The position numbers were made by a program, and so were the translations under genes. A stretch of DNA of 64,000 nt from Chloroflexota bacterium. Its GTDB lineage: Bacteria; Chloroflexota; Limnocylindria; Limnocylindrales; CSP1-4. Positions within the stretch are counted from its first letter, which is position 1; each line of letters opens with the position of its first letter. The stretch spans positions 1-64,000 of the forward strand of contig JAJYNJ010000076.1 of the NCBI GenBank assembly GCA_021786385.1, in the 5' to 3' direction. The notes under the pieces are model-generated. The model made no database searches. It worked only from the letters and a program-made list of their open reading frames with translations, and was not told where the DNA came from. Below, one piece after another: positions 46,932 through 58,810 of this stretch.

Positions 46932-48014
46932 CTAACCAACCACCTCGCCGTGTGCGACCGGGTCGGGCGGCGGATGCCTGGCCCTCAGTACCCTCCCGAT
47001 GACCGTCCTGGCCTGGCGAGCAATGTAGGGAGCGGTGATCGAGACGATGAGCAGCAGCCCCACGGCAACCGTCTGATAGTCGCCCGATACACCCGCGAGG
47101 TTCAGGGCGCTCTGTAGAGTGGCCAACGTAAAGACGGCAAGGATGACTCCGGGGATCGTCCCTTTGCCGCCGTTGATGTCCACGCCACCCAGCAGCACGA
47201 TCGTGACCACCGTCAGCACGAGCCCGCTGCCGTTGTCGCCCCGAGCACTCGAAAACCGTGCCGTGAGGATGATCCCGGCAAGGGCTGCCAAGACGCCGGA
47301 CACCACGAAGAGTGCCGTCTTGAGCGCGGCCACATCGACCGCTGCGTACCGTGCAGCATCCTTGTTCTTCCCCACGGCGAACACTTGCCGGCCAATCCAG
47401 GTTGCGTGAGCGACGAACCAGAAGACGGCGCCGAGCATTGCGAAGACGATCAGCGTCCACGGAATCGGAGACCCCGGGACCGTGCCGAACCCGAAGGCCG
47501 TGAAACCAGATGGGAAGTCGCTGATCGCCCGCGTGCCCAGCACCACCTGCGCCAAGCCGCGGTACAGCGCCAGCGTCCCGAGCGTGACGACCAGCGACGG
47601 TAGGCCGGCTCGTGCGACAAGAAGGCCGTTCAAGAGCCCGGCCAACCCACCGACGGCGAGGACGAGTGGGATATCCACCTCGAGGGGGACACCAGCCGCC
47701 CAGAGAAAGCCGAGGATGGCGCTCGCAAGTCCAAGTGTGGACTCGACGGAGAGATCGATCTCCCCGGCGATGATGATCAACGTGGCAGGCAGCGCCATGA
47801 TTGCAACCTCCATCATGGCGCTCGTCAGGTTTGCGAAGTTCGAGGGCGTCAGGAAGTACGGGGAGACACGCGTCCCCATCCAGACGAACAAGCCCAGGAT
47901 CAGGACAAGAAAGAACTCCCAGCGGGCAAGGACGGAAGGGTGCGCCCATGGACGGGCCACCGCAGGCGACACAGGGGCCGATTCGGGCGCGGCCACGGCC
48001 CGCTCCTTGGTCAT
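46932..48014 (-). CDS. rhaQ: rhamnose ABC transporter permease
   Basis: 360 residues from MTKERAVAAPESAPVSP at 48014; the track start lies inside the upstream gene. It is a branched-chain/ribose-type permease with ten or so helices, including the family motif AGEIDLSVESTLGLASAILG and VVTLGTLALYRGLAQ. The late EAA-like segment is LLGGVDINGGKGTIPGVILAV. It overlaps the other permease by four bases (ATGA). Assignment to rhamnose comes from its operon. Confidence 0.9.
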   Translation of the reverse strand: MTKERAVAAPESAPVSPAVARPWAHPSVLARWEFFLVLILGLFVWMGTRVSPYFLTPSNFANLTSAMMEVAIMALPATLIIIAGEIDLSVESTLGLASAILGFLWAAGVPLEVDIPLVLAVGGLAGLLNGLLVARAGLPSLVVTLGTLALYRGLAQVVLGTRAISDFPSGFTAFGFGTVPGSPIPWTLIVFAMLGAVFWFVAHATWIGRQVFAVGKNKDAARYAAVDVAALKTALFVVSGVLAALAGIILTARFSSARGDNGSGLVLTVVTIVLLGGVDINGGKGTIPGVILAVFTLATLQSALNLAGVSGDYQTVAVGLLLIVSITAPYIARQARTVIGRVLRARHPPPDPVAHGEVVG

Positions 48015-49024
48015 GGGACAACGGCCTGCCTGGTGCCGCGGGCGCGTAGACGAACGAAGGCGTCGGTCGCCACTGCGATCAGGATCACCGCGCCATAGAT
48101 GACCTGCAGCAATTCCTGAGGCAGGTTCAGGAGCAGGAGCGCATTGTTGATGAGACCGAGAAACAGGGCGCCGATCGCGGCGCCGACGACGGTTCCGGAG
48201 CCACCCGAAATGGCCACGCCGCCGACTACGACAGCTGCAACGACCTGCAGCACAACCCCGGACGCAGACGTCGCATAGATCGTCCCGAACTCCACGCCCC
48301 ACAGTACGCCGGCCACTCCGGCGAGCAGTCCGCACAACGAAAACGCCACGAAGATCACCCAGCGACTATGGATGCCCATGACGGTCGCGGCCTCACGATC
48401 GCTGCCGACGGCATAGAGCTGTCTGCCGAACCGCGTGGAGTGCAGCGCGACGGCTGCGAGAGTCGTGGTCAGTACTGCAACGATCACGAAGAGTGGCACG
48501 CCAAAGATCGTCTGAGTCGCGGGGTTCGTGTAGCCCGCAGGCAGGTCGGACAAACTGATCTGGGTTCCATTCGCGACGAAGAAGACGAGCCCCCGATAGA
48601 CGTTGAGCGTGCCGAGAGTGACCACGATGGAGGGCACCCGGAAGATCGTGATGATGGCGCCGTTCACCATCCCGAGGACGAGGGCCAGACCAAGCCCCAT
48701 CGCCCACGCCTCTGGCACAGACGTCGAATGCTCCCGGAGCACTGCGCCCACGACAAACGCGATCAGGCCCATCGTCGATTCGACAGACAGGTCCACCTCA
48801 CGAGTGATCACCACGAGCGCCTCGCCCACCGCGGCGATGGCGATGATGGCCGCCAGCACGGTGACCTGATTCAAGTTGTCAGGCGCAAGGAAGTTGGGCG
48901 CGCGAACCGTCACCAGGACAGCCAACACGACCATCACGCCGGTCAGAGTCAGTTCCCTCGAGCGGCCCAGCGCGCCGAGTATGGGCCCCAGTCGTGTGCG
49001 GTGGACGGCCCAGCTAACGCTCAC
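48011..49024 (-). CDS. rhaP: rhamnose ABC transporter permease
   Basis: 337 residues, GTG start overlapping the ATPase stop by four bases. Same family as its neighbour: TREVDLSVESTMGLIAFVVG, VVTLGTLNVYRGLVFF, FGRQLYAVGSDREAATVMGIHSRW and VVGGVAISGGSGTVVGAAIGALFLG. The two permeases form the heterodimeric channel for RhaS-delivered sugar. GTG start and overlaps suggest translational coupling throughout the transporter block. Confidence 0.9.
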   Translation of the reverse strand: MSVSWAVHRTRLGPILGALGRSRELTLTGVMVVLAVLVTVRAPNFLAPDNLNQVTVLAAIIAIAAVGEALVVITREVDLSVESTMGLIAFVVGAVLREHSTSVPEAWAMGLGLALVLGMVNGAIITIFRVPSIVVTLGTLNVYRGLVFFVANGTQISLSDLPAGYTNPATQTIFGVPLFVIVAVLTTTLAAVALHSTRFGRQLYAVGSDREAATVMGIHSRWVIFVAFSLCGLLAGVAGVLWGVEFGTIYATSASGVVLQVVAAVVVGGVAISGGSGTVVGAAIGALFLGLINNALLLLNLPQELLQVIYGAVILIAVATDAFVRLRARGTRQAVVP

Positions 49025-50658
49025 GCGGTGCCTCCTGCGTGAGAAGCCTCGGACGGGCCACCCGCCTCGGCCGACGCTCCACCGTCGTGTCCGGTAGCTG
49101 CGAACATGACACGCTCCTCACTCGCCTCGGCCCGCGGAATCTCGGCCGTGATCCGACCTTCGTGGAGGACGAGGATCCGATCGCTCATCGCGAGCACTTC
49201 GGGGAGATCGCTCGAGATCAGCACGATCCCCAGGCCCGAGGCGGCCAGTTCGGACACGATCCGATGGACCTCGACCTTCGCGCCGATGTCGACGCCGCGC
49301 GTCGGTTCGTCGAGGATCAGGACCTTAGGGTGCGTGGCCAGCCACTTCGCGATGACGACCTTCTGCTGGTTCCCGCCGGAGAGCGCCTGGACGAGCTGGT
49401 CGACGCTCGTCGCCCGGACTCGCAGCCGGTCCACGAAGCCTCTGGCCAGCGTTCGCTCCGTGGCGGGGTGCACGAGGAGATGCGGAAAGAGGCGCGGCAA
49501 GATCGGCAGCGTGACGTTGTCCGTAATGGAGAAGTCGAGGATCAGCCCGTCTCGATGCCGATCCTCAGGGACGTACGCGATCCCGGCACGCAGCGCCGCC
49601 GACGGCGAGGAGAGGTGCAGCGGCCTCCCGTCGAGCAGCATTTCCCCTCCGGACGCCTGATCGATCCCGAACAAGACTCGGGCGATCTCCGTGCGTCCGG
49701 CCCCCACGAGGCCCGCCATGCCGACGATCTCGCCTGCATGGACCTTGAAGCTGACGTCCTGGAAGGCGCCTGGACGCGAAAGATGGCGCACCTCGAGCAG
49801 CACCTCCCCGATCGGCGCCTCGGCCTTCGGGAAGAGCGTCACGGCCCGCCCCACCATGTGGCGCACCAGATCGGCCGTGGTCAGATCACCGACGGATGCG
49901 GTGATGATGTGCCGTCCGTCCCGAAACACCGTCGCCCGATCGCACAGCTCGAAGACCTCTTCCAGTCGGTGGCTGACGAACAGGACCGCCACACCGCGAT
50001 CGCGGGCCCGACGGACGATGGCGAAGAGCCGCTCGACCTCGTGCGCGGACAGCGCGGAGGTCGGCTCATCGAGGATCAGGACGCGGGCGTCCACCGAGAG
50101 CGCCTTGGCGATCTCGATGAGTTGCTGATCAGCCATCGACAAGCCGCGTACGGTCGCGCCCACGTCCAGGTGCACGCCCAGTTCCTCGAAGAGGGCTGCC
50201 GCCATCTGGCGCATCTCGGCCCATGAGATGGCCCCCAAGCGGCGGGTCGGCGGGTGCGCCAGAAAGACGTTCTCGGCAACGGACAAGTCGGGGAAGAGGC
50301 GGGGTTCCTGGTGCACGACGGCGATCCCGAGGAGGCGCGCCGTCACCGGGTCCGGGATCTGGACCTCGACACCATCGAGCAGGATCGTTCCCGAGTCCGG
50401 GACGTGGACCCCGGCGAGGATCTTGACGAGCGTGCTCTTGCCCGCGCCGTTCTCACCGACCAGGGCGTGGATCTCGCCGGCGCGGAGCTCCAACGAGACG
50501 TCGGTGAGCGCGGCCGTCGCGTCGAACCGCTTCGAGACGTTGCGGACCTCCAGTCGCGATCGGCTAGGAGAATCCGCTGGACCGTCCGGCGCGACGCCCG
50601 GCGTGTCGACACGGCTGCGGACCGAGCTTCCCGCCCCGGGAGCGTCGCCCATCGTCAT
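49021..50658 (-). CDS. rhaT: rhamnose ABC transporter ATP-binding protein (two NBDs)
   Basis: 545 residues from MTMGDAPGAGSSVRSRV at 50658, 17 bases after the rhaR stop. The track start at 50826 lies inside rhaR. Two nucleotide-binding domains: the first is canonical (GENGAGKST, GLSMADQQLIEIAKALS, VLILDEPTSAL); the second has the degenerate Walker A GLVGAGRTEIARVL and an intact signature LSGGNQQK with ILDEPTRGVD, as usual for ribose-type transporters. It powers RhaPQ. The C terminus has a Gly/Ala/Ser tail. Confidence 0.9.
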   Translation of the reverse strand: MTMGDAPGAGSSVRSRVDTPGVAPDGPADSPSRSRLEVRNVSKRFDATAALTDVSLELRAGEIHALVGENGAGKSTLVKILAGVHVPDSGTILLDGVEVQIPDPVTARLLGIAVVHQEPRLFPDLSVAENVFLAHPPTRRLGAISWAEMRQMAAALFEELGVHLDVGATVRGLSMADQQLIEIAKALSVDARVLILDEPTSALSAHEVERLFAIVRRARDRGVAVLFVSHRLEEVFELCDRATVFRDGRHIITASVGDLTTADLVRHMVGRAVTLFPKAEAPIGEVLLEVRHLSRPGAFQDVSFKVHAGEIVGMAGLVGAGRTEIARVLFGIDQASGGEMLLDGRPLHLSSPSAALRAGIAYVPEDRHRDGLILDFSITDNVTLPILPRLFPHLLVHPATERTLARGFVDRLRVRATSVDQLVQALSGGNQQKVVIAKWLATHPKVLILDEPTRGVDIGAKVEVHRIVSELAASGLGIVLISSDLPEVLAMSDRILVLHEGRITAEIPRAEASEERVMFAATGHDGGASAEAGGPSEASHAGGTA

Positions 50659-50674
50659 CTGTCCGTCGCTGCAG

Positions 50675-51547
50675 TCACAGCTGCTGCCCTGCCTCGTTGG
50701 GCGCCGAATCGTCGGCGCGCGGATGATCGTCGGACGACGCCCTCGAGGGGACGAGCCACACGTCGACGCCGGCGGCACGTGCTTCTGCGACCAGCTCTGG
50801 GGGGGCTGCGACATCGGTAAGGACACGCGTGATGCGGTCTGCGCGACAGAATGTCGCGAACGACGCGCGCCCCCACTTCGTGTGATCGATCACGGCGATC
50901 ACCTCGCGTGCGGCGCCCACCATCGCGCGCTTGATCTGCGCTTCCTCCTCGGTCGCGTCAGTCAGGCCGGTGCCGATGGTGAACCCGGCAGCACCGACGA
51001 TCGCTTTCTGAATGTTGATCCGCCTAAAAACACCATCTCCGAGGCCCCCCACGAGCGAAAACGCCTCGTGGCGCACCCAGCCGCCCAACAGCAACACGCT
51101 GATCCCTGGGTAGCCGGCCAGCTCTGAAGCGATGCGCAGGCCGTTCGTCACGACCGTCAACAGCGACCAGCCGCCGCGCGATTTGAGCTCGCGCGCCACG
51201 TACAGGGCGGTCGTGCTCGCGTCGAGGGCGATTGCCTCACCGTCCTGGACCAGGTCGACGGCGGCAGCGGCGATCGAAGCCTTCTCGTCCCGCTGCAGGC
51301 GTTCGCGCATCTCGAACGCCCCTTCCGGCCGGGCCACGCCGATCGCCACAGCCCCGCCGTGGGTGCGCACCAGACGGCCTTCCTGCTCGAGCCGGACGAG
51401 ATCCTTTCGGATCGTGACGGCAGAGACGCCGAATTGAGAAGCCAGCTCGTTGACCCGAGCGCGACCGTGCTCTTCCACAATGCGCCCGATCTTGTACTGG
51501 CGCTCCCTGGCGAACTCCTCCCCGACCGCGGCCGCTGGCTTCGTCAC
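50675..51547 (-). CDS. rhaR: DeoR-family regulator of rhamnose genes
   Basis: 290 residues. DeoR helix-turn-helix: RQYKIGRIVEEHGRARVNELASQFGVSAVTIRKDLVRLEQEGRLVRTHGGAV. The sensor domain shows ALDASTTALYVARELK and VTNGLRIASELAG, then EEEAQIKRAMVGAAREVIAVIDHTKWGRASFATFC, which binds sugar phosphates in this family. It is the first gene of the long operon, directly under the promoter at 51606-51634, so it controls its own synthesis. The natural inducer is probably a rhamnose pathway phosphate. Confidence 0.88.
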   Translation of the reverse strand: MTKPAAAVGEEFARERQYKIGRIVEEHGRARVNELASQFGVSAVTIRKDLVRLEQEGRLVRTHGGAVAIGVARPEGAFEMRERLQRDEKASIAAAAVDLVQDGEAIALDASTTALYVARELKSRGGWSLLTVVTNGLRIASELAGYPGISVLLLGGWVRHEAFSLVGGLGDGVFRRINIQKAIVGAAGFTIGTGLTDATEEEAQIKRAMVGAAREVIAVIDHTKWGRASFATFCRADRITRVLTDVAAPPELVAEARAAGVDVWLVPSRASSDDHPRADDSAPNEAGQQL

Positions 51548-51605
51548 GCGTCCCCCTGCCCATTAATCCGCTGCGGATGCTTGCCGGACGTTTGCGGTGG
51601 ACCGG

Positions 51606-51634
51606 ACGATACCGCTGCGAATCGCAGGTGTCAA
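51606..51634 (-). promoter_or_regulatory. rhaR-operon promoter with palindrome in its spacer
   Basis: On the minus strand, TTGACA (51634-51629), 17 bases, then TATCGT (51611-51606). Inside the spacer, CTGCGAATCGCAG (51615-51627) is a perfect 13-base palindrome with a one-base centre. A repressor bound there would block RNA polymerase directly. The transcription start would be near 51598, about 50 bases upstream of rhaR. Confidence 0.6.
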
Positions 51635-51652
51635 CAGAATGATACGAAAGTC

Positions 51653-51681
51653 TTCAAAACCATCCGGCAGCGTGGTATGGT
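51653..51681 (+). promoter_or_regulatory. candidate rhaEW promoter
   Basis: TTCAAA (51653-51658), 17 bases, TATGGT (51676-51681), each 4 of 6 to consensus, in the right place for the TTG-started rhaEW gene at 51749. It is separated from the divergent rhaR promoter by about 20 bases. Confidence 0.4.
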
Positions 51682-51748
51682 TCCCGCCGGACGCTTGGCG
51701 CAGAGAGCGTGACATACCAGCGGCGCCGGCGGACCGGAGGGATGACGC

Positions 51749-53827
51749 TTGACTACGACAGCCGGGCCACGGGCGGACACGAGTGAGCGCGGCGCGCCCT
51801 CGCCCGTACAAGAACTGCTCGCGCGATCGCACAGACTTGGGGCGGATCCGAGGAACACCAACTACGCAGGCGGCAACACCTCCGTCAAGGCGCTGGCCAC
51901 CGATCCGGTCACCGGGCAGCCGGTAGAGCTGATGTGGGTGAAGGGATCAGGGGGCGATTTGGCCACGCTCAAAGAGGAGGGTCTCGCCGTCCTACGGATG
52001 GACCGGCTTCGCGCACTGGTCGACGTGTACTCAGGCGTCGAGCACGAGGACGAAATGTTCGCCGCCTTCGACTACTGCCTGCACGGCAAGGGGGGCGCGG
52101 CACCCTCGATCGACACCGCTTCCCACGCGTTCGTGGACGCGCCTCACGTCGACCATCTGCATCCGGACTCGGGGATCGCCCTGGCGACCGCCGCGGACGG
52201 TGAAGCCCTCACCCGTGAGTGCTTCGGCGGTCGAGTGGCCTGGGTGCCCTGGCGCCGTCCCGGGTTCCAGCTCGGTCTCGACCTCGCAGCGATCCGCCGC
52301 GATCACCCGGAGGCGATCGGTGTGATCCTCGGGGGTCATGGGATCAGCGCGTGGGGCGCTACGTCGGACGAGTGCGAAGCCCACTCGCTCGAGATCATCC
52401 GCACCGCCGAACAGTTCATCGCCGAACGCGGCAAGCCCGAGCCGTTCGGTCCGTTGGTCCGAGGACGCGAGCCCTTGCCGGAAACTGAGCGCCGGGCGCG
52501 GGCAGCAGCCCTCTTTCCGCTGATCCGCGGGCTCGTATCGACGGACCGCCGGCAGGTGGGTCACTACACCGACAGTGACGTCGTCCTCGACTTCCTCGCC
52601 CGTGCCGAGTGCCCCCGACTCGTAGCGCTGGGAACGTCGTGCCCCGACCACTTCCTGCGCACCAAGGTCCGCCCGCTGCTGGTCGACACGGCGGCGGATG
52701 CGCCGCTGCCAGACGTCATCGCGCGCATCAAGGAGCTCCACGCGTCCTACCGAGACGAATATCGGGCGTACTACGAACGGTACGCACAGCCCGACAGTCC
52801 GCCGATGCGCGGTGCAGACCCTGCGATCGTGCTGGTGCCCGGCATCGGTATGTTCAGCTTCGGCGCCAACAAGCAGACTGCGCGCGTGGCCGGCGAGTTC
52901 TACGTCAACGCCATCAACGTGATGCGTGGTGCCGAAGCGCTGTCGACGTACGCACCCATCCCCGAATCGGAGAAGTTCCGCATCGAGTACTGGGCACTCG
53001 AAGAGGCCAAGCTTGCACGTCTTCCCAAACCGAAGCCACTCGCGTCGCGCATCGCCTTCGTCACCGGCGGAGGCTCCGGGATCGGGCGGGCGATCGCCCA
53101 CCGGCTGGCCGCAGAAGGCGCGTGCGTCGTCATCGTCGATGTCGACGGGGACAACGCGCGTGCCGTGGCAGAGGAGCTCGGCGGATCGGACACCGCCATC
53201 GCGGCCACCGCCGACGTGCGAGACGAGGAACAGGTCGCGGCCGCACTCCAACGCGCGGTCCTCGCCTTTGGCGGCGTGGACCTCGTTGTGAACAACGCTG
53301 GCCTCTCCCTCTCCAGGCCGCTCTTGGAGACGAGCCTCGCCGACTGGGACCTGCAGCACGACGTCATGGCAAGGGGCTCGTTCCTGGTCTCCCGCGAGAC
53401 CGCGCGCATCATGATCGACCAAGGGCTAGGCGGCGACATCGTCTACATCGTCAGCAAGAACTCACTGTTCGCCGGTCCGAACAACGTCGCGTACGGCGCG
53501 GCGAAAGCGGACCAAGCACACCAGGTGCGGTTGCTCGCGGCAGAGCTCGGTCAGTACGGGATCCGTGTCAACGGCGTCAACCCCGACGGCGTCGTGCGCG
53601 GCTCGGGGATCTTCGCCAAAGGCTGGGGCGCGCAGCGTGCGGCGGTCTACGGGGTGCCCGAAGACAAGTTAGGCGAGTTCTACGCGCAGCGGACCTTGCT
53701 CAAGCAGGAGGTGCTGCCCGAACACGTGGCGGGCGCCGTCTTCGCGCTCACGGCCGGCGACCTGAGTCTGACCACCGGGCTACACATCCCCGTCGATGCC
53801 GGCGTGGCAGCCGCGTTCCTGCGGTAG
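51749..53827 (+). CDS. rhaEW: bifunctional L-rhamnulose-1-phosphate aldolase / L-lactaldehyde dehydrogenase
   Basis: 692 residues, TTG start with GGAGGG 7 bases upstream. Residues ~20-400 are a class II aldolase (NTNYAGGNTSVKALATDP, ELMWVKGSGGDLATLKEEGL, DAPHVDHLHPDSGIALATA with metal His residues, VILGGHGISAWG). Residues ~430-692 are an SDR (IAFVTGGGSGIGRAIAHRLAAEGA, DLVVNNAGLSLSRPLL, VSKNSLFAGPNNVAYGAAKADQAHQ). This fusion, known from Chloroflexus and Bacillus, cleaves rhamnulose-1-phosphate to DHAP and L-lactaldehyde and oxidises the aldehyde to L-lactate, which LutABC can then use. Confidence 0.94.
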   Translation: MTTTAGPRADTSERGAPSPVQELLARSHRLGADPRNTNYAGGNTSVKALATDPVTGQPVELMWVKGSGGDLATLKEEGLAVLRMDRLRALVDVYSGVEHEDEMFAAFDYCLHGKGGAAPSIDTASHAFVDAPHVDHLHPDSGIALATAADGEALTRECFGGRVAWVPWRRPGFQLGLDLAAIRRDHPEAIGVILGGHGISAWGATSDECEAHSLEIIRTAEQFIAERGKPEPFGPLVRGREPLPETERRARAAALFPLIRGLVSTDRRQVGHYTDSDVVLDFLARAECPRLVALGTSCPDHFLRTKVRPLLVDTAADAPLPDVIARIKELHASYRDEYRAYYERYAQPDSPPMRGADPAIVLVPGIGMFSFGANKQTARVAGEFYVNAINVMRGAEALSTYAPIPESEKFRIEYWALEEAKLARLPKPKPLASRIAFVTGGGSGIGRAIAHRLAAEGACVVIVDVDGDNARAVAEELGGSDTAIAATADVRDEEQVAAALQRAVLAFGGVDLVVNNAGLSLSRPLLETSLADWDLQHDVMARGSFLVSRETARIMIDQGLGGDIVYIVSKNSLFAGPNNVAYGAAKADQAHQVRLLAAELGQYGIRVNGVNPDGVVRGSGIFAKGWGAQRAAVYGVPEDKLGEFYAQRTLLKQEVLPEHVAGAVFALTAGDLSLTTGLHIPVDAGVAAAFLR

Positions 53828-54255: not shown

Positions 54256-54969
54256 ATGTCTAGACAGATGGCCATCTACCGGCAGATCAGCGAAGCACTC
54301 GAGGACGAAATCCGGGGCGGGCAGCTGGGAGTCGGGGGTCAGCTGCCCGCTGAGAACGACCTCGCCCGACGCTTCGGCGTCAGCCGCATGACGGTGCGCC
54401 AGGCGTTGGCCGAGCTCGCACGCAAGCGCCTCATCACCACGCGGGCGGGCTCAGGCAGCTATATCACGTTCGATGACCAGCAGCTCGACTGGCGGCAGGG
54501 CTGGTCGCGCGCGCTGGCGATCCATGGGGCCCGCATCGAGTCGCGCGTCCTGCGCTTTGGACCCATCGAGGACGCCGCGCTGGCTGAGCGCTTCGGGACC
54601 GCAGCCGAGTTCATCGCACTTGATCGGGTGCGCCTGCTCGACGGCCGCCAGCCGATCTCCCTCGAGCGCAGCCGCATCCCGCTCGTCGAGCGCACCCAGT
54701 CGCTTCTCGATGTCGACTTCGCCCGCGAGTCGTTGATGGACGCCATGCGCCGTGCAGGGCTGGTACCTGCGAGCAGCGAGGAGTGGATCGAGGTCGCGCA
54801 GCTCACGACCGATGAGGCGCGCGCTCTCGACCGCGCCATCGGCGAGGGATTTCTCCTGAGCCGGCGCGTGACGCGCGACGCGCAGGGGGCGCTCATCGAG
54901 CACGTCACGAGCCTCCTCGATCCGGCGCATTTCCGGCTGCACATCACCTTCGATCTTGGCCCGCGATGA
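54256..54969 (+). CDS. GntR/HutC-family transcriptional regulator
   Basis: 237 residues from MSRQMAIYRQISEALEDEI at 54256; the track start is 90 codons upstream. GntR winged helix: QLGVGGQLPAENDLARRFGVSRMTVRQALAELARKRLITTRAGSGSYI. The UTRA ligand domain follows (LRFGPIEDAALAERFGTAAEFIALDRVRLLDGRQPISLERSRIP). No ribosome-binding site precedes the ATG and the -10-like gataat lies only 18 bases upstream, so the mRNA may be leaderless. First gene of a four-gene operon; the family usually senses a pathway sugar phosphate. Confidence 0.88.
   Translation: MSRQMAIYRQISEALEDEIRGGQLGVGGQLPAENDLARRFGVSRMTVRQALAELARKRLITTRAGSGSYITFDDQQLDWRQGWSRALAIHGARIESRVLRFGPIEDAALAERFGTAAEFIALDRVRLLDGRQPISLERSRIPLVERTQSLLDVDFARESLMDAMRRAGLVPASSEEWIEVAQLTTDEARALDRAIGEGFLLSRRVTRDAQGALIEHVTSLLDPAHFRLHITFDLGPR
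54257..54266. promoter_or_regulatory. TGTCTAGACA palindrome at the GntR start codon
   Basis: A perfect 10-base palindrome overlapping the ATG. Its core GTCTAGAC is the core of known HutC-subfamily operators such as DasR/NagR sites. It lies 14 bases after the -10-like gataat, so a bound regulator would block its own operon. Confidence 0.5.
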
Positions 54970-56027
54970 CCCAGGGACGGACCGGCGCGCTGGATCCGCA
55001 GGCGGCGCTCGCGCGCGCCCGGGGCGCGCTCTATGGCCTGGCCATCGGCGATGCCCTGGGGATGCCGACCGAATTCCTTCCCCGCCGCCAGGTGACGGCG
55101 CTCTTCCCGGAGCTGCGCGGCTTCGAGCCCGGACCCGCGGCCAACGAGCTCAGTGCGGGCACCCCTGCGGCCACGGTTACCGACGACACGCAGCAGGCGC
55201 TCATCGTGGCGCGCTTGCTGGTCGAAGGGCAAGGCCACATCGATGCCGGCCGGTTTATCCACGCGCTGCTCGCCTGGGCGGATGCCGCCGAGGCCGACGG
55301 CAGCGAGCAACTTGGTCCCTCGTCGCGGCGGGCGTTGGAGGCCGTGCGGCGCGGGGTGCCTCCCGAGACCGCGGCTCGGCGCGGCGACACGAACGGCGCG
55401 GCCATGCGCATCGCGCCGCTCGGCGTGGCCATCCCCCCCGACCCGCTCGAACGGCTGCTGGATCGGGTCGAAGAGGCATGTCGGCCGACCCACTTCACAG
55501 GCCTCGCGATCGCGGGCGCCGCGGCCGTCGCCGCGGCCGTGAGCGCAGGCGTCGACGGCGCCTCTTTCGCCGACGCGTTCTCGCTCGCGCGCCACGCTGC
55601 GCGCGCCGGGCAGCTGCGGGGCCACTATGCGGCGGGCGCGAGCGTCGCTGAGCGGCTGGTATGGGCGGTCGACTTGGTGACCGGCCTGGACGAAGCGAGT
55701 GCCCTCGACGCCATCGAAGCCCTCGTCGGCACCGGCGTCACCACGCAGGAGGCGGTGCCGGCCGGGTTCGCCATCGCGGCCCGTTGGTCGGCCGATCCCT
55801 GGCAGGCCTGCCTCGTGGCGTCACGCCTGGGTGGGGACAGCGACACGATTGCGGCGATGACAGGCGCTATCGTGGGTGCCTGCGTCGGAGAGGCTGGGTT
55901 CCCGGTGGCGGCGGTCGACGAGGTCCAGCGAGTCAATCGCCTCGACCTGGCACGCATGGCCGGGGACCTCCTCGAGGTACGGGCAAGGGTGCTGGCCGAG
56001 GATGGCGCCAACCAGCGCACAGAGTGA
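54966..56027 (+). CDS. ADP-ribosylglycohydrolase-family protein
   Basis: 353 residues, overlapping the GntR gene by four bases. DraG/ARH fold: ARGALYGLAIGDALGMPTEF, the metal-binding ATVTDDTQQALIV, GDTNGAAMRIAPLG, and the closing LGGDSDTIAAMTGAIVGACVG, with both Asp pairs of the dinuclear Mg site present. Family members release ADP-ribose or ribose-type groups from proteins or small molecules. In this operon, with a nucleobase-type permease and a PfkB kinase, a small-molecule nucleoside-like substrate is likelier than a protein. That is inference. Confidence 0.85.
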   Translation: MTQGRTGALDPQAALARARGALYGLAIGDALGMPTEFLPRRQVTALFPELRGFEPGPAANELSAGTPAATVTDDTQQALIVARLLVEGQGHIDAGRFIHALLAWADAAEADGSEQLGPSSRRALEAVRRGVPPETAARRGDTNGAAMRIAPLGVAIPPDPLERLLDRVEEACRPTHFTGLAIAGAAAVAAAVSAGVDGASFADAFSLARHAARAGQLRGHYAAGASVAERLVWAVDLVTGLDEASALDAIEALVGTGVTTQEAVPAGFAIAARWSADPWQACLVASRLGGDSDTIAAMTGAIVGACVGEAGFPVAAVDEVQRVNRLDLARMAGDLLEVRARVLAEDGANQRTE

Positions 56028-56043
56028 GAGCGAGGAGGCATCG

Positions 56044-57507
56044 ATGAGCGGGCAGCTACCCGAAAGCGACCGCGTCTGGGCGATCGAGCTGAACGGCATC
56101 CGGCCCATTGCCGAGGCGGAACGGCACGGCACGCCCTTCGAGCTCTTCTGGGTCTGGTTCGCGGCCAACATCGGGATTCTGGGCGTCATCTACGGCGCGA
56201 TCCTGACGAGTCTCGGGCTCAACCTTTGGCAGAGCGCCTTCGTGGCGCTCGTGGGGTCGGCTGGGTCGTTTGCCCTCGTCGGCGTCTTGAGCGTCGCGGG
56301 CAAGTGGGGCGGCGCGCCCGCCTTGACCCTGTCGCGAGCCCCCTTCGGCACGCGGGGCAACCTCGGGCCGACGCTCGTGAGCTGGATCAGTCTGGTGGGC
56401 TGGGAGACGGTCACGGTCGTCACTGCGGCCTACGCGTTCCTCGGGCTCCTCAATCTCGCGGGCATCCCGTCCGACACCTTCTGGACCGTGATCAGCCTCG
56501 TGGTCGTGGCCGTGCTCGTCGTCCTCTTCGGCCTCCTGGGCCACGCCACCCTGGTCTGGCTGCAGCGCGCCGCCACCTACATCTTCGGGGTCCTGACACT
56601 CGTGATCGTCGCGCTCCTCATCGGCAAGACAGACTGGTCCGCCGTGCTCGCGGCCAAGCCCGGGCCCTGGGACTCGGGGGTCCTGGCCACGCTCAGCATC
56701 ATCGCCGCGGGCACCGGGATCGGCTGGGCCAATGCGGGCGCGGACTACGCGCGGTACCTGCCCCGGCAGGCCAGCGGCGGCGCGATCGCCGGGTGGACGG
56801 TGTTGGGGGCCACGCTGCCGCTCTTCGTCCTGATCATGGTGGGCGCCCTGCTCTCCAGCAACGTGAAAGATCTGGCCTCTTCGGCCAACCCGATCCAAGC
56901 CATCGGCAACGCCCTGCCGGCATGGATGGCCGTGCCCTACCTGCTGACGGCGATCGGTGGCCTGCTCGCCGAAGCGGACCTCTCGATCTACTCCTCGGGG
57001 CTCAACCTGCTGGCGATGGGCTTCAAGATTCAGCGCTACAAGACCGTCCTCGTCGACGGGGTGATCATGGTCGGCGGGTCCATCTTCGTGATGGTCATCG
57101 CCCAGAACTTCTTCGGCCCGTTCGAGAGCTTCCTGCAGCTGCTCGCGGATGGCCTCGCGGCCTGGGCCGCGGTCTTCCTGGTCGATATGGCCCTGCGCCG
57201 CGGATACGACGAGGCAGGCCTCGTCGACACGGGCCCGCAGAGCCCGTACTACTACACGCGTGGGGTCCACTGGCGGGCCGTCGCCGCCTGGGCCGCGGGG
57301 ATCCTGGTCGGCCTCGCCTTCACAACCTCGCCCTGGTTCAGCGGACCGTTGGCCGTCGGCGTGTTCGCCTCGAGCAGTCTCGGCTACTTCATCGGATTCA
57401 CCGTGAGCGCCCTCGGGTACTGGGCGCTCGTTGCTGCGCGCCCCGCGCCCCGGGGTGTGGTCCCCGCGCCCGCGCCCACCGACGCCGCGGACCCGACCCG
57501 GAGCTAA
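56044..57507 (+). CDS. NCS1-family nucleobase/cation symporter
   Basis: 487 residues from MSGQLPESDRVWAIE at 56044 with GAGGAGG upstream. About twelve helices. NCS1 hallmarks: FWVWFAANIGILGVIYGA in helix 1, GAPALTLSRAPFGTRGNLGPTLVSWISLVGWET in helices 2-3, GTGIGWANAGADYARYLPR in helix 6, and AEADLSIYSSGLNLLAMG. Relatives carry cytosine, purines, allantoin, hydantoins or thiamine precursors with sodium or protons. It lies between the DraG-like hydrolase and the PfkB kinase and probably imports their substrate. Confidence 0.88.
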   Translation: MSGQLPESDRVWAIELNGIRPIAEAERHGTPFELFWVWFAANIGILGVIYGAILTSLGLNLWQSAFVALVGSAGSFALVGVLSVAGKWGGAPALTLSRAPFGTRGNLGPTLVSWISLVGWETVTVVTAAYAFLGLLNLAGIPSDTFWTVISLVVVAVLVVLFGLLGHATLVWLQRAATYIFGVLTLVIVALLIGKTDWSAVLAAKPGPWDSGVLATLSIIAAGTGIGWANAGADYARYLPRQASGGAIAGWTVLGATLPLFVLIMVGALLSSNVKDLASSANPIQAIGNALPAWMAVPYLLTAIGGLLAEADLSIYSSGLNLLAMGFKIQRYKTVLVDGVIMVGGSIFVMVIAQNFFGPFESFLQLLADGLAAWAAVFLVDMALRRGYDEAGLVDTGPQSPYYYTRGVHWRAVAAWAAGILVGLAFTTSPWFSGPLAVGVFASSSLGYFIGFTVSALGYWALVAARPAPRGVVPAPAPTDAADPTRS

Positions 57508-57509
57508 GG

Positions 57510-58460
57510 GTGCCGCTGCTGGCTCGTCCGCGTCGGTTGGTCCTCATCGGCAGCGTCCTGGTCGACGTCCTCCTGTACGTCGACCAGCTCCCCGAACGCG
57601 GCGGCGACCGCGTGGCCGCGCACAGCATCGTGACCTCGGGGGGCGGCTTCAACGTGCTCGTGGGGGCCGTCCGCCTGGGTCTGCCGGCGGCATACGCGGG
57701 ACGCGTAGGGGACGGCCCCTTTGGGATGCAGGTCGCGAAGGATCTCGCCGCGGCGGGCATCGAGATGCTGCTGCCCCCCATCGCGGGGGAGGACAGCGGC
57801 TTCGACATCGGCCTGGTGGAACCAGATGGCGAACGCACCTTCGTCACCGCTCCGGGGTGCGAATCGCGGCTCCAGCGCGCCGATCTGCTGGCGCTTCCAC
57901 TGCGGCCCGGCGACGCTGTGTACGTCTCGGGTTACGACCTGTGCTATCCCGTCTCGGGTACCGCGCTCGGCGCCTGGCTCCCCACGCTCAGTGATTCGCA
58001 GCTGCTGCTCATCGACCCGGGCCCACTCGTAGCCGAGATCCCGGCCAAGCGGCTGGCGGCCGTGCTGGCGCGGACGGACATTCTCACGCTGAACGCGCGT
58101 GAGACACGCCTCCTGACCGGCGCAGACGATGTCGCCGCCGGCGCGGCCGCCCTGGTCGATCGCGTCGCCGACGGTGGATGGGTGGTGGCGCGGGCGGGAG
58201 CGGGCGGCTGCTGGGTGGCGAGCCGCCTTCAGGGGCCGGTCCATGTGCCGACCCCACCGACCGAGGCGATCGACACCACCGGCGCCGGGGATGCGCACGC
58301 GGCGGCGCTGCTCGCGCGGATCGCCCTGGGTGAGGAGATGATCGCGGCTGCGTGGGCGGCCAACGTCGCCGCCTCGATCGCCGTCACCCGTCGCGGGCCG
58401 GCCGCTGGCCCGAGCGCCGAAGAACTCGAGGCCACGCTGGCCGCGACCAGCTCCCGTTGA
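57510..58460 (+). CDS. PfkB-family carbohydrate/nucleoside kinase
   Basis: 316 residues, GTG start two bases after the permease stop codon. PfkB motif 1 is SIVTSGGGFNVLVGAVRLGLPAAYAGRVGDGPFGMQVAKDL; motif 2 is TEAIDTTGAGDAHAAALLARIALGEE with the catalytic Asp of GAGD. FVTAPGCESRLQRADLL lies in the lid/substrate region. The track starts far upstream in another gene's antisense. It would phosphorylate a sugar or nucleoside released or imported by the two preceding proteins; ribokinase-, YegV- and pseudouridine-kinase-like substrates are all possible. Confidence 0.86.
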   Translation: MPLLARPRRLVLIGSVLVDVLLYVDQLPERGGDRVAAHSIVTSGGGFNVLVGAVRLGLPAAYAGRVGDGPFGMQVAKDLAAAGIEMLLPPIAGEDSGFDIGLVEPDGERTFVTAPGCESRLQRADLLALPLRPGDAVYVSGYDLCYPVSGTALGAWLPTLSDSQLLLIDPGPLVAEIPAKRLAAVLARTDILTLNARETRLLTGADDVAAGAAALVDRVADGGWVVARAGAGGCWVASRLQGPVHVPTPPTEAIDTTGAGDAHAAALLARIALGEEMIAAAWAANVAASIAVTRRGPAAGPSAEELEATLAATSSR

Positions 58461-58631
58461 GGGTGCCCCAGACGGGCCGGCTGCGCCGCGCGCCCTGGAC
58501 GGCATCGGGATCGACGACGGGGACCCCGACCCGGTCGGGCTGCGCAGCCGTCGGACTGCGCAGCCGGGAGGAATCCACCGCCCCAGCACCTGATCCGATG
58601 GTAGTATGTTGACCGCAAGCTCCAATAGCGA
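58461..58631. other. intergenic region before the cobalamin riboswitch
   Basis: GC-rich palindromic segments (ggctgcgcagcc near 58538 and again a related copy near 58553) could end the PfkB operon. tagtat at 58602-58607 is a possible -10 for the riboswitch RNA. No gene. Confidence 0.4.
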
Positions 58632-58756
58632 CAGAGGTAGCCTCCTCCCCCGCGTGGGGACCAGGCTCAAACGGGGAAGCCGGTGCGATGCCGGCGCTGT
58701 CCCGCAACTGTATCCATCCAGAACGGATGGGAGCCAGATCGCCGGCCTCTGCCGAA
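58632..58756 (+). ncRNA. cobalamin (B12) riboswitch aptamer
   Basis: The conserved core is present in order: agaggtagcctcctcc (P1/P2 side), ggggaagccggtgcgat, gccggcgctgtcccgcaactgt (the B12 box), a peripheral hairpin atccatcc...ggatggga, and gagccagatcgccggcct. It lies directly upstream of a corrinoid uptake and salvage operon, the expected target. It binds adenosyl- or methylcobalamin and would switch the terminator at 58811-58844. Confidence 0.93.
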
Positions 58757-58810
58757 CTCAGCCGCAGCTCTTCGAGAGAGAGGCGTAGGCTCGCTCGGGC
58801 GCCGTCCCGA

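Follow-up and report, generated by a model that had tools for sequence, protein, structure and literature searches.

A GntR-ARH-NCS1-PfkB operon in a Chloroflexota bacterium and a proposed kinase-first route of N-riboside catabolism

The plus strand of a 64,000-nucleotide stretch of contig JAJYNJ010000076.1 from a Chloroflexota bacterium (assembly GCA_021786385.1), here called the window at its full length, carries at positions 54256-58460 four genes for a GntR-family regulator, an ADP-ribosylglycohydrolase (ARH), an NCS1-family permease and a PfkB-family kinase. These four families had been named in an earlier reading of the letters alone (the sequence-only reading); all four open reading frames lie at the place given there, and Pfam confirmed the families. 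It is highly probable that the operon is a catabolic system for a small-molecule N-glycoside. For the route we favor, at about an even chance, a kinase-first catabolism of an N-riboside, in which the compound is imported, phosphorylated in the 5′ position and cleaved to ribose-5-phosphate and a base.

By this route the NCS1 permease would import the N-riboside, a nucleoside-like compound, PfkB would phosphorylate the 5′-hydroxyl group of the ribose with the base still attached, and the metal-dependent ARH-fold hydrolase would break the N-glycosidic bond at C1 of the phosphorylated riboside, yielding ribose-5-phosphate for central metabolism and the free base. GntR would sit on the palindrome TGTCTAGACA at the operon start and be released by the substrate or the substrate phosphate.

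Conservation of the four genes as a unit

The gene of the GntR/HutC-family regulator (54256..54969, 237 amino acids; PF00392, 5.9e-20, and UTRA, 3.9e-17) is followed by those of the YegU-like ARH (54966..56027, 353 amino acids; PF03747, 7.3e-61), the NCS1 permease (56044..57507, 487 amino acids; PF02133, 2.2e-53) and the ribokinase-superfamily kinase PfkB (57510..58460, 316 amino acids, GTG start; PF00294, 4.6e-43). With spacings of −4, +16 and +2 bp on one strand, they are arranged as in a single operon. None of the four proteins passed an equivalog cut-off when compared with the NCBIfam models; since the Pfam matches are strong (206.8 bits for ARH against a cut-off of 26.2, and 182.1 bits for the permease against 23.5), the families are secure and the specific functions are not fixed. 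A search for sigma-70 promoters and terminators yielded none.

Related loci were gathered with an ARH alignment from one-genome-per-species contigs, of which the best 80 of 512 confirmed candidates were used, a sample biased to close relatives; neighboring genes were annotated by homology, and plasmid, Escherichia coli and further Chloroflexota loci were added. ARH, NCS1 and PfkB occur together in 69 loci, 46 of them, from Chloroflexota, Actinomycetota and Pseudomonadota, in the order GntR-ARH-NCS1-PfkB and 12 in the order NCS1-isochorismatase-(GntR)-ARH-PfkB. The protein distances of the three are correlated (ARH-PfkB, r = 0.97; ARH-NCS1, 0.86; NCS1-PfkB, 0.81; 0 of 999 permutations as high), shared species history adding to these values. 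Since the identical gene set is found again across many phyla, the clustering is not due to chance, and a lack of co-conservation, by which the sequence-only reading was to have been refuted, was not found. Among the 17 plasmid records that hold an NCS1 relative (at least 35% identity), ARH directly adjoins it in 15. In three actinobacterial metagenome-assembled genomes ARH and PfkB are fused in a single open reading frame (L043, 7806-10010, 734 amino acids; L045, 7971-9938, 655 amino acids; L080, 7983-10034, 683 amino acids), and the fusion probably arose more than once because the three are only 56-61% identical to one another and stand on separate branches of the tree. The fusions are good candidates for purification, since a single enzyme might display both activities. 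Co-conservation, fusions and plasmid records together bear out the sequence-only reading that this is a real module by which a nucleoside-like compound is imported, split at the glycosidic bond and phosphorylated.

The same evidence makes it scarcely credible that ARH is a protein de-ADP-ribosylating enzyme, either DraG-like or of the toxin-immunity kind, that lies beside transport genes by chance. It does share its fold and metal motifs with DraG, ARH3, Tri1 and Lmo0067. The motifs T72DDT (72-75) and G289GDSDT (289-294) are invariant or nearly so among its relatives, and the AlphaFold model (predicted local distance difference test, pLDDT, 95.9) has MJ1187, ARH3 and DraG as the closest PDB structures. 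Against such a function, the protein scored only 71.7 bits with the NCBIfam model for DraG (cut-off 337) and 72 bits with that for Tri1 (cut-off 490), it co-varies with permease and kinase, and it is fused to PfkB in three genomes. A search of the bacterium's own genome for DraT gave no match, which is uninformative, the control having been equally silent.

Among 400 Chloroflexota genomes, ARH was found in 22, a relative of the NCS1 permease in 50 and the kinase in 20 at the thresholds used; the viral contigs searched held no NCS1 relative. The nearest relatives of the operon are cassettes of Ktedonobacteria (Ktedonosporobacter, Thermogemmatispora), with proteins 58-75% identical, and the near kin of the genome itself mostly lack the cassette, which fits a horizontal acquisition.

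The actinobacterial version has an isochorismatase-family hydrolase as fourth partner, which is absent from the window. The Lactiplantibacillus locus encodes a nicotinamidase-like protein with a DxH metal motif; this motif is missing from the isochorismatase-family hydrolase, which we therefore do not call a nicotinamidase. Four Chloroflexota genomes have a lone NCS1-isochorismatase pair. In L133 (4113-6180), L134 (5027-7095), L135 and L136, all from Chloroflexota, NCS1 and the isochorismatase-family hydrolase are accompanied by neither ARH nor a YegV-like PfkB; such pairs may represent a version of the pathway for bases only.

On the Lactiplantibacillus plasmid L018 (2842-9214), genes for an NrtR-like regulator, nicotinate phosphoribosyltransferase (pncB) and a nicotinamidase-like protein lie immediately ahead of ARH-NCS1-PfkB, a context that hints at NAD-related ribosides. 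We treat nicotinamide riboside as a lead only: a second Lactiplantibacillus plasmid lacks the pncB, nicotinamidase-like and NrtR-like genes, and the missing metal-site motif of the actinobacterial isochorismatase partner also speaks against it.

Carrier exchange and the order of the steps

The permease, which we propose to be a riboside importer, is 69-75% identical to the permeases of the Ktedonobacterial cassettes and 45-47% to those of Paraburkholderia, and it misses the subfamily models (CytX (HMP), 66.4 bits against 309.9; TIGR00800 NCS1, 84.2 against 353.1). NCS1 is the commonest carrier across the ARH tree (86 rows). Carriers of the E. coli type, which belong to the NHS family of the major facilitator superfamily (MFS), form one starred clade (97) within a starred group (98) that also holds a Plesiomonas cassette with NCS1, the whole neighboring the lactobacilli. 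The sequence-only reading had the carrier changed in the window; the carriers do differ, and the change lies on the E. coli side, NCS1 being the widespread version and the E. coli MFS carrier the exception of one derived clade. In Rhizobium, Mesorhizobium, Burkholderia, Paracoccus and Acidisoma, NCS1 is replaced by a PotABCD-like ATP-binding cassette (ABC) transporter, the binding protein of which is nearest to PotD. More distant ARHs adjoin a phosphotransferase system (PTS; L019, L020, L161) or a Bmp/PnrA-like nucleoside-type ABC transporter (L148, L153, L157). At least nine carrier changes are needed on the tree, rows without a carrier label being omitted.

In the Chloroflexota locus L147 (2111-9059) the neighbors of ARH are a gene for an inosine-uridine nucleoside hydrolase and two for type I phosphodiesterases/nucleotide pyrophosphatases, a set that suggests nucleotide scavenging. 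On the Klebsiella plasmid L161 (2065-7788) ARH and GntR are accompanied by a mannose-type PTS and two amidohydrolase genes; PfkB is absent. Residue E121 near the substrate site of NCS1, considered as a sign of a cationic substrate, was set aside, not being kept in lactobacilli.

The substitute carriers (NHS, PotD-like ABC, Bmp/PnrA-like ABC) and the nucleoside hydrolase of L147 point to nucleoside-like or cationic solutes. It is quite unlikely that the operon instead handles a glycoside that lacks ribose or is no nucleoside, such as an N-glycosylated sugar or amine, and that the carriers were chosen for it. The beta-glucoside-type and mannose-type PTS, the PotD-like ABC transporter and the SIS-domain protein that one distant cassette contains are unusual for nucleosides and speak for such a substrate; yet the SIS, mannose-PTS and Bmp cases fall outside the main YegU-like group, and NCS1, NHS and Bmp carriers, the aminoimidazole riboside (AIRs) kinase discussed below and the nucleoside hydrolase contexts all indicate nucleosides.

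The sequence-only reading had left the order of phosphorylation and cleavage open, and the evidence leans toward the kinase acting first. The PTS versions, whose solute arrives already phosphorylated, do without the kinase: PfkB was found within about 6 kb in 0 of 3 PTS loci (three records only, from two tree positions), as against all NCS1 loci (61 of 61) and all Pot-ABC loci (14 of 14) with full flanks. The order is also favored by the kinase itself (AlphaFold pLDDT 95.2), a proposed riboside 5′-kinase with the catalytic motif GAGD at 258-261. Ribokinase contacts ribose via N14, D16, G42, K43, N46, E143 and D255 (PMC9604405); in the window kinase and its relatives the equivalents of D16, G42, N46 and D255 are kept and N14, K43 and E143 are missing, the alignment at E143 being uncertain and L064 having Glu at this position as the one exception. 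K43 and E143 are also missing from psuK and gsk of E. coli and from the Salmonella AIRs kinase. The third argument for phosphorylation before cleavage is that the PfkB protein of the parallel Salmonella operon STM4065-4067 is this AIRs kinase (PMC3161100, citing Dougherty and Downs 2003), which acts on the intact riboside. STM4066 matches PDB 1TYY along its full length; 1TYY is closer to fructokinases, and the window kinase, which matched it only with E 4e-8, is not a close relative.

The opposite order, in which ARH splits the unphosphorylated riboside to ribose and base, and a ribokinase-like PfkB then makes ribose-5-phosphate, appears rather unlikely, if much less so than the other alternatives. 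The kinase is nearest to ribokinases both by profile (E 1e-43) and by fold (top match E. coli RbsK), a likeness that suits free ribose equally well, and PfkB is lacking near all three Bmp-ABC versions, though these do not depend on a PTS, and near the ARH linked to the inosine-uridine nucleoside hydrolase. A cleavage-first order is opposed by the three absent ribose contacts, by the low score with the NCBIfam ribokinase model TIGR02152 (98.2 bits, cut-off 299.7) and by the PTS versions without PfkB, which would still face a phosphorylated glycoside.

To the ribokinase likeness, the Bmp-ABC versions, the small PTS sample and the uncertain alignment at E143, which all weigh against the kinase-first route, further points are to be added. 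Three strong Chloroflexota relatives of the kinase have no neighboring ARH, NCS1-PfkB being kept without it in G230 and G310 and the kinase in G199. The names of carrier families are no proof of the substrate. Known ARHs favor alpha-linked ribose, and the common nucleosides are beta-linked. For the YegU-like subfamily we know of no biochemistry on any ARH.

In favor of the kinase-first route, known ARHs hydrolyze the C1 bond of a 5″-phosphorylated ribose, so that a 5′-phosphoriboside would be a natural small substrate; we propose the window ARH to be an N-riboside (5′-phosphate) hydrolase. The genome of the window holds a separate canonical nucleoside hydrolase, which weakly suggests that the operon serves a compound beyond the reach of ordinary enzymes. 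Somewhat short of an even chance, we would extend the proposal to a widespread, undescribed kinase-first nucleoside pathway with an ARH-fold N-glycosidase of nucleoside 5′-phosphates, with interchangeable NCS1, MFS, ABC and PTS carriers and with isochorismatase-type base processing in some actinobacteria; a riboside that is cationic or modified is a possible substrate.

Regulator, putative operator and neighboring genes

The regulator has a GntR helix-turn-helix and a UTRA domain, belongs to the GntR/HutC family and is 44-48% identical to the GntR proteins of Paraburkholderia and Rhizobium cassettes. At 54257..54266, overlapping its first start codon, lies the perfect palindrome TGTCTAGACA, which the window contains once as an exact match. 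All 7 of the 7 occurrences in 1.37 Mb of related loci sit at the start of a GntR gene (the Ktedonobacteria loci L023, L024, L030 and L158, L145, and the two Streptomyces loci L026 and L028), L023 and L158, which carry identical sequence, both being counted. L146 has the close variant TGTATATACA at the same place. TGTCTAGACA is likely the GntR operator, and since most of the remaining GntR loci lack it, it would be the operator of one regulator branch. The codons TCT and AGA are kept in this gene of 70% GC, for which a constraint on the DNA appears a better explanation than one on the coding. Because the ATG at 54256 overlaps the conserved palindrome, the true start may be the next one, ATG 54271.

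Directly downstream of the operon a cobalamin riboswitch (RF00174, 48.7 bits) was found at 58618-58764 on the plus strand; it starts the next unit, the open reading frames of which were read by eye as uptake genes of the B12/siderophore type, for a binding protein, a permease and an ATPase, and as genes of cobalamin synthesis. A link of the operon to alpha-ribazole or vitamin B12 was dropped because the riboswitch heads a separate unit and the other annotated cassettes showed no B12 genes. Upstream, and treated as outside the operon, are genes for a bifunctional rhamnulose-1-phosphate aldolase/dehydrogenase (51749-53827, 1314 bits), for a DeoR/AgaR-like regulator divergent from it (50675-51547) and for a sugar-type ABC ATPase (49021-50826), positions 48011-53827 being a sugar catabolic locus beside the operon.

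Comparison with known systems

The resemblance to E. coli yegTUVW seen in the sequence-only reading stands: with YegT (MFS), YegU (ARH), YegV (PfkB) and YegW (GgaR) the E. coli locus unites the four functions of the window operon. YegU is 40% identical to the window ARH and YegV 31% to the window PfkB; both ARHs belong to a group of 74 rows (support 92, not starred) and, within it, to separate starred clades. The systems differ in the carrier (YegT, a TIGR00889 nucleoside permease, as against PF02133), in gene order and in the regulator, the E. coli yegW gene being convergent and its product sharing just 28% identity with the window GntR. That yegTUVW has no settled function still holds, though a 2024 paper reported that YegW represses only yegTUV, responds to ADP-glucose and affects glycogen accumulation (PMC10819704). 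A corresponding role of the window operon in ADP-glucose or glycogen control is very unlikely: besides the distance between the regulators, the cassettes conserve an importer (NCS1, MFS, ABC or PTS) as partner, of which an internal metabolite has no need, and no linked glycogen gene was seen in the annotated cassettes viewed.

To call the system undescribed, as the sequence-only reading did, was too strong. SERP2216-2218 of Staphylococcus epidermidis RP62a and SCCmec V (in its J3 region) are annotated as ADP-ribosylglycohydrolase, cytosine/purine permease and ribokinase without a function (PMC3637587, PMC3321955). They are the same three families in the same order as in the window, likened by annotation alone, and the tables of the two papers list no adjoining GntR. 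Salmonella STM4065-4067 (MFS, AIRs kinase, ARH, then a GntR gene) has the same kinds of parts as the window cassette, yet its ARH is of a distant clade, its kinase is of the fructokinase-like branch, its carrier is MFS and its gene order is another; deletion of STM4067 lowered the persistence of Salmonella in pigs (PMC3161100). A search of the literature for the function of ARH-PfkB-transporter sets turned up only such annotations and the GgaR paper. The window operon thus joins a kind already known by annotation and as yet unexplained. New here are the breadth of its distribution, the side on which the carrier changed, the trade-off between PTS and kinase, the ARH-PfkB fusions, the ribose contacts absent from the kinase and the putative operator.

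To our knowledge, ARH-fold enzymes are known almost solely as erasers of protein ADP-ribose. Should this branch prove catabolic, the meaning of many ADP-ribosylglycohydrolase annotations beside carriers and kinases would change together, among them those in E. coli yegTUV, of STM4067 and in the SCCmec V trio. The Ktedonobacteria cassettes have the gene order and the palindrome of the window, divergence being the sole difference found. By analogy only, the proposed pathway is comparable to psuT-psuG-psuK of E. coli, a set of carrier, glycosidic-bond enzyme and PfkB kinase. In this pseudouridine system PsuT is the carrier, PsuK the PfkB kinase and PsuG the glycosidase that then acts on the 5′-phosphate; PsuG belongs to a glycosidase family unrelated to ARH, and the bond in pseudouridine is C-glycosidic. 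The proposed pathway would work in the same way, with the ARH enzyme standing in for PsuG.

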